Source: Bugula neritina (taxonomy: Eukaryota; Bryozoa; Gymnolaemata; Cheilostomatida; Bugulidae). From it: a stretch of DNA of 64,000 nucleotides. Below, piece by piece: positions 16,422-39,327 of this stretch. Each line of letters begins with the position of its first letter. Within the stretch, counting starts at the first letter, position 1. The position numbers were made by a program, and so were the translations under genes. The DNA is taken from the NCBI GenBank assembly GCA_964035545.1, contig OZ037772.1, forward strand, positions 4,747,733 through 4,811,732. The letters run 5' to 3'. The notes below the pieces were generated by a model, which saw nothing but the letters and a program-made list of their open reading frames with translations, searched no databases and had not been told where the DNA came from.

Positions 16422-19400
16422 TTATTCAGACCAGGGAAACTCATAAGCAATCTCAGACTTCTGATCAGATTGGTGAGAGCTGGGAACTATGACCTTACGC
16501 TTTGGAGCAAAGTAACTCTACAAACATAAAATATCTGCGTATAAACTTTTATTGTGTGTATCAAATGCTCAGCTTATAAGCTGTAGTTTTTTTACATAAA
16601 CAAAAGGAAGCAGTTATATGAACACATAATACTAACTAAACCATAGTTAACATAAAGCTGTGGTGATATATCATAAAGAAGATCCAATCCCAATAGCTCC
16701 TGATACCAAATTAAAAACACATCAGCCTAAGTAAAATTACCCTTTCTATAGATCAGCGGTTCACACATGAGACACATTAATCATAAACTCACATATAGGT
16801 ATTAACTAAACATTTAAAAATAAACTACAACATGTACATGACAACAATATATTTTGTTCAGTACTACATTGGTGTCATGAACAAAAAAGAAGCGAACACA
16901 GAAATGGTCTAGAAAAAATATCAGTTTCATTAAAGTATAGTGTTTTATTGCTAGTCATAATAGCTTGCTAAAAAGTAATCTTGTTGCCGGATATACTTAG
17001 GTAAACGCTTGACTAGATATCTTGCTATTATGTGATATGCCTAATATAATTAAAGCAGACTTTAGTCCTTAGTGCCTATACACCCAAACCGAACTTGATC
17101 TGAATACTTTGTGCGCACTTTAAAAGTTGTGCAATACCATTAATTAGCCTCTATTGACATTAATAGGCTTATATATTGACATTGATAAGCGCATATAGAC
17201 TTTGAAAAGCGTTCATTGACATCAATTATTGCATACATTGGCACTAGTTTGTTATACCTGTTGCATTGTCATTAATATGAATATATAAACAGCCTAATGT
17301 GTCTATATTCACATAAACACCCATAAATTGTTAGTTACACACTCACCCAGCCACCGTGGTGCTCAATCCAATAGTCAATATACTTCACTCTGTACATATG
17401 AATCAAAGCAGTTACTAGATGAGGTAATAATCCAATATGTCTGTCTGCCATTTCCTGTAGAGTCACGCCCACTTCAGCAAGTATTAGAATTGGCTGTAAG
17501 GCACGAGAAAAAAAACTGAGATTTGTTTTCGCATTATAGAATATAATTATGAATATAGTATTCGAACACATCTCAGGCATGTCCGTTATAGTGATGAGCA
17601 GTGTAGGTGAAAAACGTATAATGTTCTCTTAGTAACTGATCTAGCATCTAGTGTATGGCCTACTGATAACTAGATATGTGTCTGATATATATTTAGTTAT
17701 CAAAATGAGAATTTGCTTTGCTACAATGCTTTAAATATTTAAGTGCTTGTAACACTGGTTTTGCTAAGAGTCTTACTTCAGAAAATCAGCTTGGCACAAA
17801 AGTTTTCTAATGTTTTGAGTTGCTTTTTTTGTTAAGTATTCAAAATTTATAGTTCAATATTCAAAAACTCACTGCAGCTACGTAGTTGCAATGTTTTATT
17901 GCTTTCCGTTGAAAGACGTTGCAGAACATTGTCTTTATGAAATGCTCTTTAACGGAGGACACGGTGACGCATACCTCCAGGGTATCAACTATCCCAGCAA
18001 CAATTCTACGCACTATATCTTTCACCTGGCAGTCTTCTCTACCTAATTCTAAAACATACAGACAATCCTTTACTAATCAGTGGCAAATCATCCGTTCTGA
18101 AAACATGTTATAATTGATGACGAAAAACTTGAACAAAACTTAAAATTTAAAAGAATTAACTGGAAATATGCATTTTATTTTTTTCTTTTAGACACTGCAA
18201 GTTGCTTTTTGCTATGCATACAGTGTTGAAAATTAAAAAGTAAAATTGTAGGGTATCACTGTATAATATTATGCAAACTAAAAGAACAAGTAATGAGAAA
18301 AATAAATATACCGAATATAGAGTATCAAATCACAAAACCACAAAATATTTCCAAATAATATATTTAACTGACGTAAACTAACAGAGTTACCTATCTCTTT
18401 GAAACCAGAGCCAATTGTTGTGTTCATCAAGTCTCTATAACCATCTAATGATGGGACAACAAGCATTTCATTACCTTCAATAGCTTGATTTTTCTTTAGC
18501 CTACCATAAGTAAAAGTAAACAAAAATACGTTTTCACAAATATCTTAAGTTTTATAAAAATTACATCATTTATAAAATGATCAATTTCAATTGAATCAGT
18601 TACATGTGTCTGTTTTTAAAAAAAAACATTGCCTTGTGTATAATCTTGTTTTTCATATAATATGGTAGGTTTAGTAATGTGACTTCATAGAACTCTACTG
18701 ATCAAAGCGGGCAAATCAGGAACTAAAATGACTTACATTATGACTCTTAAATCTATAGGTTACCTTTTAGGGGAAATAATGTTTGTTGGTTTATTGAAAT
18801 AAAAGCTAAGTTTGAGATTTTCAATGTGAATATGATAATCAGTTTTATTAAGTGTAAAATTCCAGCTCATATATATTAGGGTTATGTTTGTAATATATAT
18901 AGTTGACAAAATAGCAGCCAGCAAATGCTTGACCTTGAAAAACAAAACGTTTCTTTCAATCCAATTAAATATTATGGTTAGCTTTCCTAAATTCATAGAG
19001 TAGGTATATAGGGCAAGTAATAAATACATTCCAATCACCTGTATGTAACATAACCTTTGACTACATCTTCTGTTGTACAGACTACATTCTGAGTCTGAGG
19101 ACATTCTGGTATCTTCCTAACACTTGGTTTGTAATTTGCTTGTTCGTGGTCGCCTGATATGTTTTCTGGTACAAACACAAAAGGTGTATATTACTATAGA
19201 TCATGGATATATATTGTTTTATTCTCTTGATGTCTATTTATCTAGCAATTATTAGTGGATTAGTTTTCATCTTCAAATTGTTTTAATCAAGCACTATAGT
19301 TAGTCAAACAGGAAGTGACTAATATTTTCAAAAACAGAATAATAATTGATCAGCTAAAACATCAAGAAAAGGTAACTCCAAGTTTATATAAACTGCGTAA

Positions 19401-38920: not shown

Positions 38921-39327
38921 CGCACACACGCACACACGCACACACGCACACACGCACACACGCACACACGCACACACGCACACACGCACACAATAGTTAT
39001 TGTTATGATATACTATAAACAATTGTAGTTATTAGCATTTACTATATTAGTATAACTATGCGACTCAGTGACTTCAACCTAACCTTTGTATTTTTGAAGA
39101 GTAACATGCTGATTGCACTGGAATGTGACAGCAAGAAGTCAAAAAGTGACCTCCTTGAAGAAGAAATAGCGAAAGAAGAAGATGCCAAAATAACTGCTGC
39201 TATAGACGCCGATCTTGCAGCAGCTACAGATGGTGAACTAGCTGCTGTCACAGATGGTGAGCTAACTGCTGCTACAGATGACGTTGCTGCTGCCAACAAA
39301 GAAGTCTTAAACGCTGAATCTGACTAG
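35162..39327 (+). CDS. BCL-2-like gene 4, 5 exons, ~234 aa, acidic Ala-rich tail
   Basis: Plus-strand exons: 35162-35223, 35459-35568, 37604-37764, 38638-38781, 39100-39327. Phases 2,1,0,0 as in its neighbours. Exon 1 starts [20 protein letters not shown], a BH4-like amphipathic helix. The BH3 region ([18 protein letters not shown]) lacks GD. BH1 is [17 protein letters not shown], where [10 protein letters not shown] stands for xGxNWGRIV. The next exon reads [14 protein letters not shown]2 is [12 protein letters not shown], the most diverged of the four (W-x5-NGW), again with an intron after the Trp. The last exon lacks a membrane anchor: after [18 protein letters not shown] it has three imperfect [14 protein letters not shown] repeats and ends NAESD. 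Intron 2 carries a DNA element, intron 3 a tandem SINE duplication, intron 4 a CA-rich satellite. AATAAA lies near 39.63 kb. Assignment rests on BH1/BH2, intron phases and location. Confidence 0.75.
35674..36952. mobile_element. Non-autonomous DNA element with GGGCACAACGG ends
   Basis: In intron 2 of gene 4. The left end reads GGGTAAC, a 14-G run, A, six G, then CACAACGG. The right end is the inverse, CGGCCCGTTGTGCCCTTGTAACCCC. Both are bordered by TAT. Related words recur inside (GGGCACAATTGG near 36.05 kb; an inverted pair GGCCCATTGT and ACAATGGGCC near 36.73-36.78 kb). No transposase frame is seen. The superfamily is not assigned. Confidence 0.55.
37757..38282 (+). repeat. 263-bp tandem duplication with a SINE and a splice donor
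   Basis: Units 37757-38019 and 38020-38282 both begin TTGTCAGAGTAAATACAAT. The first eight bases are the end of exon 3 of gene 4, followed by its GT donor. Each unit contains a SINE head: TGTGGTCTATGGGCTAAAGC (A box) and GAGTTCAAACCCCAG (B box). Divergence between units is moderate. Confidence 0.85.
38873..38992. repeat. (CA)n and 8-bp CACACACG satellite
   Basis: Intron 4 of gene 4. About 40 bp of CA, then about ten units of CACACACG. Open frames on the minus strand are artefacts. Confidence 0.97.

Follow-up and report, generated by a model that had tools for sequence, protein, structure and literature searches.

The window analysed here is the whole 64,000-nucleotide stretch at positions 4747733-4811732 of contig OZ037772.1 (C8 below) of the bryozoan Bugula neritina, and the genome searched comprises 216 Mb in 295 contigs. 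Four BCL-2-homologous genes lie at 16422-39327 of this window in the order minus, plus, minus, plus, and the two limits are the stop codons of the modelled genes 1 and 4. Each gene carries a BCL-2 homology 2 (BH2) motif, starting at 17370 (-), 28110 (+), 31193 (-) and 38755 (+). The pattern W[IL]xx[HN]GGW followed directly by GT is found three times in the window and in none of 60 first-order Markov resamplings, and gene 4 has the variant motif WHAKDCNGW. The initial annotation had described four BH2-bearing gene models within 23 kb in this order, and both the motif positions and a BH2 profile built without the window agree with it.

This profile, a hidden Markov model (HMM) of the BH2 exon, draws on 12 copies that lie elsewhere in the genome (10 diverged and 2 conventional), and 2004 open window pieces of at least 20 residues were scanned with it. 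It found exactly these four genes, with E values of 3.3e-14 for gene 3, 3e-9 for gene 4, 1.5e-7 for gene 2 and 1.2e-4 for gene 1. The next window piece had an E value of 0.84 and the best reversed-piece control one of 0.025. In all four genes the BH2 exon ends at the tryptophan of GGW or NGW, and GT follows. Taken with the comparisons below, the sequences establish homology for gene 3, support it well for gene 4 and support it for genes 1 and 2, and it is very probable that all four genes are BCL-2-derived.

Complete models, from ATG to stop with internal AG..GT junctions, were built for genes 1 and 3, which have five coding exons each with identical intron phases (2, 1, 0, 0). Genes 2 and 4 were modelled from exon B to the stop. 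In each of the four genes exon B spans the BH3-BH1 part of the domain, and exon C holds helices 5-6 and BH2. All modelled exons of the four genes are open and have usable splice sites. The modelled 5' ends of the head-to-head genes are at most 7.7 kb apart for genes 1 and 2, with a retroelement between them, and at most 4.2 kb apart for genes 3 and 4. The features are as follows.

19055-19104, minus strand: gene 1 exon 1 (tentative), with the ATG, phase 2 out; this ATG and the donor GTTATG give a complete open five-exon model
18391-18500, minus strand: gene 1 exon A, phase 2 in and 1 out, as in gene 3 exon A
17873-18048, minus strand: gene 1 exon B (BH3-BH1 region), HCNYVAA at the BH1 place with W, G and R lost; matched by an exon HMM that had this exon in its training set
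17347-17493, minus strand: gene 1 exon C (helices 5-6, BH2 WIEHHGGW), donor directly after W; leave-window-out E 1.2e-4
16422-16517, minus strand: gene 1 last exon (model), with no transmembrane stretch
26830-26996, plus strand: gene 2 exon B, GGWKGPFL at the BH1 place; an alternative acceptor would move the start to 26801
27103-27994, plus strand: 46-bp tandem array of 19.4 copies, occupying the BH1-BH2 intron of gene 2 and entering the first bases of exon C
27981-28133, plus strand: gene 2 exon C (BH2 WIQKHGGW), splice site after W; leave-window-out E 1.5e-7
29043-29150, plus strand: gene 2 last exon (model), with no transmembrane stretch
33387-33406, minus strand: gene 3 exon 1 (tentative model), with the ATG, phase 2 out
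32628-32752, minus strand: gene 3 exon A (model), phase 2 in and 1 out
32216-32379, minus strand: gene 3 exon B, BH3-like ISLVGDDLL, BH1 ITWGKILI, donor GTTAGT; leave-window-out E 2.1e-6
31170-31310, minus strand: gene 3 exon C (BH2 WLQQHGGW); leave-window-out E 3.3e-14; 33 of 34 residues in common with protein P0001
29960-30115, minus strand: gene 3 last exon, with no transmembrane stretch; the frame stays open further upstream and the acceptor is uncertain
37604-37764, plus strand: gene 4 exon B, YSRLVR at the BH1 place; spliced Pfam score 23.4 bits
38638-38781, plus strand: gene 4 exon C (BH2 WHAKDCNGW), splice site after W; leave-window-out E 3e-9
39100-39327, plus strand: gene 4 last exon, with no transmembrane stretch; acidic and alanine-rich tail with a short repeat

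Two of the introns contain tandem repeats. The consensus of the 46-bp unit in gene 2 starts with GCAGATGCTG, an acceptor-like site. The unit includes the acceptor GCAG together with the opening bases of the BH2 exon, so that this intron carries many acceptor-like copies. In gene 4, a 264-bp unit is present in two tandem copies at 37757-38285; it starts at the end of exon B and duplicates the donor region of that exon.

Evidence for BCL-2 homology

The initial annotation had proposed a check of the exon models against the Pfam Bcl-2 profile (PF00452), whose curated cut-off is 31.4 bits. Gene 3 is over the cut-off and the other three genes are below it. Spliced gene 3 scores 41.8 bits (E 1.6e-10), or 42.6 bits for exons B to D, and the Pfam alignments cover profile positions 14-100 (18-100 in gene 1). 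The spliced proteins outscore the lone BH2 pieces. Before splicing, pieces of three of the four genes matched weakly (0.11, 0.033 and 0.0016) and gene 4 had no match, and a genome-wide search with the same profile gave eight places, none inside the window at 1e-3. Exon B was also compared with its reversed sequence, which lowered the score from 42.6 to 19.7 bits in gene 3 and from 23.4 bits to no match in gene 4. The upstream exon is thus firmly BCL-2-like in genes 3 and 4, and for genes 1 and 2 the comparison is only suggestive. An exon-B HMM built from nine copies outside the window matched gene 3 alone in the window (2.1e-6).

Searches of PDB sequences point in the same direction. With gene 3 the best E value is 1.5e-6, and each of the best 60 among 142 sequences up to E 10 is a chain of the BCL-2 family or a fusion with one. 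A profile of genes 1, 2 and 4 with four other diverged copies matches BAX at 1.3e-7 and BCL-w and BCL-2 from 1.1e-6, among the best 60 of 178 sequences up to E 10. In profile-profile comparison, genes 1, 2 and 4 match a set of three conventional genes and the copy at C3:19.93 Mb with a probability of 96.4 over 74 columns, and the seven-row diverged set reaches 98.8.

Several results weigh against BCL-2 homology of genes 1, 2 and 4. Their spliced models stay below the Pfam cut-off, with 23.4 bits for gene 4 (8.8e-5), 18.0 for gene 2 (0.0043) and 16.3 for gene 1 (0.015). Real exon B gains only 2-3 bits over its reversed sequence in gene 1 (17.3 against 14.5) and gene 2 (18.0 against 15.7), and the leave-window-out exon-B HMM has no match to genes 1, 2 or 4. 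In single-sequence PDB searches gene 1 reaches 0.53 to BCL-xL and gene 4 0.13 to a BCL-2, and with gene 2 unrelated proteins rank first. We therefore call genes 1, 2 and 4 homologues because of the genome-specific BH2 profile, the intron position and the profile-profile match, and not as Pfam members.

On another explanation, the genes would not be BCL-2 homologues and GGW motifs would have arisen by chance in unrelated helical or non-coding sequence. The weakness of genes 1 and 2 when taken alone, and the failure of the leave-window-out HMM to find their exon B, would fit this. However, the scan with its reversed control gave four and only four BH2 exons, gene 3 is over the Pfam cut-off, and the intron position, the profile-profile matches and the absence of the motif from the resamplings all speak against it. 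A chance motif is rejected on the leave-window-out BH2 profile together with the 60 resamplings. We consider the explanation as a whole very improbable, and for genes 3 and 4 it is contradicted.

Extent and history of the family

The cluster appears to be part of a lineage-specific expansion of about 26 diverged loci. The family was searched with the gene 3 BH2 exon as query, which gave 18 places, with further seeds and with HMM scans of selected regions. There are 26 diverged BH2 exons in the genome, together with four conventional genes; these are counts of BH2 exons rather than annotated genes, and the HMM scans covered selected regions only. Their places are as follows.

Window: four diverged BH2 exons
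C8:9.874-9.943 Mb: 14 diverged BH2 exons
C3:7.507-7.517 Mb: three diverged BH2 exons
C3:14.057 Mb: one diverged BH2 exon
C3:19.927-19.930 Mb: two diverged BH2 exons
C4:11.015 Mb: one diverged BH2 exon
C8:12.013 Mb: one diverged BH2 exon
C4:4.810 and C5:9.338 Mb: conventional genes, BCL-2-like by motif resemblance
C4:13.463 Mb: conventional gene, BAX-like by motif resemblance
C6:15.568 Mb: conventional gene, BAK-like by motif resemblance

Clusters of two or more hold 23 of the 26 diverged loci. The largest is a tandem array on the same contig as the window (C8:9874000-9943000), where 12 of the 14 BH2 exons are on the plus strand and there is about one per 5 kb. This count includes weak members at C8:9.878 Mb (0.0082), 9.919 Mb (0.0043 in a seed search, and 0.052 in an HMM scan) and 9.934 Mb (5.6e-4, in the seed search alone), and leaves out candidates at C8:9.914 (E 16) and C8:9.922 (E 0.71) as too weak. 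Several copies were in the training set of the HMM that also matched gene 1 exon B, so their E values with that HMM are flattering. The initial annotation had spoken of a local expansion of very diverged, fast-evolving members. The divergence and the expansion are borne out by the genome-wide set, but the expansion is not local only, given the other loci and the larger array.

The intron positions are informative on the history of the copies. GT stands right after the BH2 end in 26 of the 27 diverged copies listed, which are the 26 counted copies minus that at 9.934 Mb plus the two weak candidates; at two array ends, which have no GGW, the position was set by eye. The remaining copy, at C4:11014648-11014782, has no GT donor after its BH2 exon, a possible loss of the conserved intron. 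An intron at this place is a likeness to the multi-motif BCL-2 family (BCL-2/BCL-xL/MCL-1 and BAX/BAK/BOK), in which the BH2 exon ends at the GGW tryptophan, as described in PMC8998228. A difference from that family is an extra phase-0 intron five residues past the BH1 tryptophan. A phase-0 intron on the BH1 side is present in 17 of 17 copies with exon B, five residues after W in 16 of them (Y in gene 4) and at the aligned place without W in gene 1, whereas the two BCL-2-like conventional genes read through the site. Since the scan behind many of the exon B ends admitted only GT donors, the count of 17 is partly circular; what is informative is the constant distance from the BH1 tryptophan. 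The extra intron argues for a single origin of the expansion, with loss in the conventional genes as the alternative. With their five coding exons, genes 1 and 3 are nearer to pro-apoptotic genes, with four to six exons, than to pro-survival genes with two coding exons, by the exon counts given in PMC8998228.

The initial annotation had also seen two head-to-head pairs. This orientation holds, but a local duplication of two such pairs is not supported: similarity at the DNA level is limited to short stretches, with no match longer than 59 bp among the four genes in gene orientation, and the tree does not favor it. In a tree of 17 rows, none of the 14 inner branches reaches the 95/80 level and the window genes are ungrouped (4 changes); the four conventional genes tend together, in 70% of 200 bootstrap trees. 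Genes 1-3 have a similar BH2 end, RV..[IL]D.W[IL]..HGGW, and the array copy at C8:9.888 Mb comes close to the same signature. Apart from its own sequence, gene 4 matches best to copies on other contigs.

Descriptions of intrinsic apoptosis usually involve few BCL-2 proteins, which are conserved. Published gene counts, as given in PMC2246300, are 17 for human (12 confirmed by domain search), 11 for Nematostella, eight for sea urchin and seven for amphioxus, and PMC8998228 gives 11 each for Hydra and Acropora millepora. The view taken in the initial annotation, that BCL-2 genes are usually single in invertebrates, is too strong in the light of these counts of 7-11 in several invertebrates (PMC2246300, PMC8998228). 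Cnidarian families resemble the present one in their many paralogues, several of which are hard to place by subtype according to the same two papers; they differ in having 11 members each, whereas about 26 diverged and four conventional members are present here, counted as BH2 exons. The Pacific oyster likewise has invertebrate homologues of BCL-2, BCL-xL, BAK and BAX, with pro-death and rescue activity in yeast (PMC5550854). It differs in having seven candidate genes, and the text available from PMC5550854 mentions no large array. Multi-gene BCL-2 families in invertebrates are already known and the genome-wide extent here is unexpected: an expansion of about 30 loci with a tandem array exceeds the published counts cited. 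We found no report of a BCL-2 expansion this large in the open-access full texts searched, which leave out most subscription papers and all preprints. Bivalves have expanded IAP families (PMC7831173, PMC8917759), which are similar as lineage-specific growth of an invertebrate cell-death regulator family and different in the protein family concerned, the inhibitors of apoptosis.

Motifs, membrane anchor and likely function

The consensus of the BH3 core is a hydrophobic residue, three residues and then G-D. ISLVGDDLL of gene 3 fits it, and no such core was recognised by eye in genes 1, 2 and 4, where the models of genes 2 and 4 start at exon B. At the NWGR-like BH1 motif, TWGK of gene 3 is close, SYSR of gene 4 and GGWKG of gene 2 are partial, and the motif is absent from gene 1 (HCNY), the tryptophan, glycine or arginine being lost or altered in these last three. 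Gene 3 therefore has BH3-, BH1- and BH2-like motifs as in the multi-motif family, whereas genes 1, 2 and 4 differ from it in altered BH1 and BH3. The putative helix 5, in segments picked by hand, has a mean Kyte-Doolittle (KD) hydropathy of 1.11, 1.09, 1.24 and 0.99 in genes 1 to 4, against a median of 0.09 for window frames. Only gene 3 exceeds the 90th percentile of window frames (1.15) and the two conventional BCL-2-like genes have 1.48 and 1.55, which counts against the reading favored below.

A further difference from the multi-motif family is that we found no convincing tail-anchor exon for genes 1-4, and their best last exons are all polar. A C-terminal anchor does not define the BCL-2 family as a whole. 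In mouse pro-survival BCL-2 genes the anchor is encoded by the exon after BH2, as reported in PMC8998228. A clear anchor is present in the BAX-like gene and in the copy at C3:19.93 Mb, where a hydrophobic segment follows DSLKTVYG.... Some observations count against reading the window proteins as soluble. Hydrophobic frames do occur within 2.5 kb downstream of genes 1 (one), 2 (one) and 4 (two), though not of gene 3, and some of these frames have acceptor tracts no worse than that of the exon taken as the anchor in the C3:19.93 Mb copy (0.40). The two conventional BCL-2-like genes have several anchor candidates, none of them unambiguous. Because these genes also yield no clear anchor exon, the lack of a membrane anchor in the window proteins is suggestive only. 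The models give no support to the organelle-membrane module of the initial annotation, and the same caution applies to this absence.

We favor, with moderate confidence, the reading that the four genes encode fast-evolving regulators of cell death with a BCL-2 fold, probably soluble ones. They would descend, diverged, from a multi-motif BCL-2 gene, and their proteins would fold as BCL-2 helical bundles. As the modelled last exons are polar, the proteins are probably soluble, and their place of action could be the cytosol, where they would bind BH3-type helices or other BCL-2 proteins. In this way they would tune a mitochondrial cell death that the retained conventional BAX-, BAK- and BCL-2-like genes set. 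Classical groove binding is most plausible for gene 3, with its three motifs. In genes 1, 2 and 4, where BH1 is altered and no BH3 core is recognised, the partners have probably changed. Alternatively, the BCL-2-fold proteins could work outside apoptosis, in organelle dynamics, calcium handling or the binding of microbial proteins. The altered BH1 and BH3 in three of the four genes, the lack of a convincing tail anchor and the polar tails, for example the repetitive acidic tail of gene 4, are consistent with this. However, it is BH2 and the helix 5-6 region that have been retained, gene 3 still has all three motifs, and the spliced models have no significant second Pfam domain, and we regard a non-apoptotic role as rather unlikely.

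It also has to be considered that some or all of the four genes are decaying copies of a birth-and-death family that make no working protein. Besides the altered BH1 and BH3 of genes 1, 2 and 4 and the tandem repeats in the introns of genes 2 and 4, a recent pair in the array (C8:9.898 and 9.904 Mb) fits such decay. The two copies have 84.8% DNA identity over 2.6 kb, and exons B and C are identical in 84.8% of columns, the same as the ungapped flanking DNA (about 85%), so that the exons are no better kept than their flanks. In one of the two, exon B contains single-base indels between which the frame is shifted. This is a family of fast birth and death, some copies of which are probably dead. 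A protein-database search with one piece of gene 1 and one of gene 2, gene 4 not being among the queries, found no relative, which also weakens the case for working genes.

Against decay, all four window genes have open modelled exons and usable splice sites, and in the same array pair the BH2 exon (exon C) has dN 0.146 and dS 0.348 over 41 codons. Further, protein P0001 (112 aa, source jgi, on a 1925-base contig) agrees with the BH2 exon of gene 3 in 33 of 34 residues, compared with 25 of 55 in the intron frame beyond that exon. This is the pattern of a conserved exon that ends where the model predicts. On the other side, P0001 has no match to gene 3 upstream of the 34 matched residues. We judge decay of the window genes to be unlikely.

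Our guess is that pathogens or symbionts exert a pressure that would account for the rapid change and the tandem arrays. A correlation of BCL-2 expansions with the diversity of pathogens is stated in PMC13303787. A bolder proposal, which is unlikely in our estimate, is that the roughly 30 loci, mostly clustered soluble folds with eroded BH motifs and rapid turnover, are immune decoys or sensors for microbial or viral BCL-2 or BH3 mimics. On this proposal the BCL-2 set would be among the largest known, and an immune repertoire in place of a conserved apoptosis switch. The four conventional and about 26 diverged members are in any case a natural experiment, in which the BH motifs, and perhaps the anchor and the partners, have been altered over and over. 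From it one could learn which parts of the fold, here BH2 and helices 5-6, stay when the rest is free to vary, and whether pathogens or symbionts exert a pressure under which cell-death regulators multiply, as has been suggested.

Neighbouring and unrelated sequences

The retroelement between genes 1 and 2 is a frame at 19596-23117 (-) with reverse transcriptase, RNase H and integrase domains, and it is Gypsy-like, a label given by domain order alone. A fragment of a further reverse-transcriptase element lies at 43984-45207 (-; RVT_1, E 3.5e-9). Adjoining gene 1, a 428-codon open frame at 14189-15472 (+) looks sulfotransferase-like by eye and has no sequence match in Pfam, NCBIfam or PDB. Frames at 8016-8525 and 9140-9454 (both +) contain a PAN domain (2e-6) and, weakly matched, a galactose-binding domain (0.0056), and are perhaps exons of a single extracellular protein.

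Elsewhere in the assembly, contig C17 has a bacterial-looking oxidase gene (48% GC), contigs C196 and C65 have foreign-looking COX1 genes, and a second full-length COX1 match at C6:11174072 scores close to the mitochondrial one on C295; the mitochondrial COX1 reads with the invertebrate mitochondrial code. Judged by eye, these genes on C17, C196, C65 and C6 would be contaminants, symbionts or nuclear copies.

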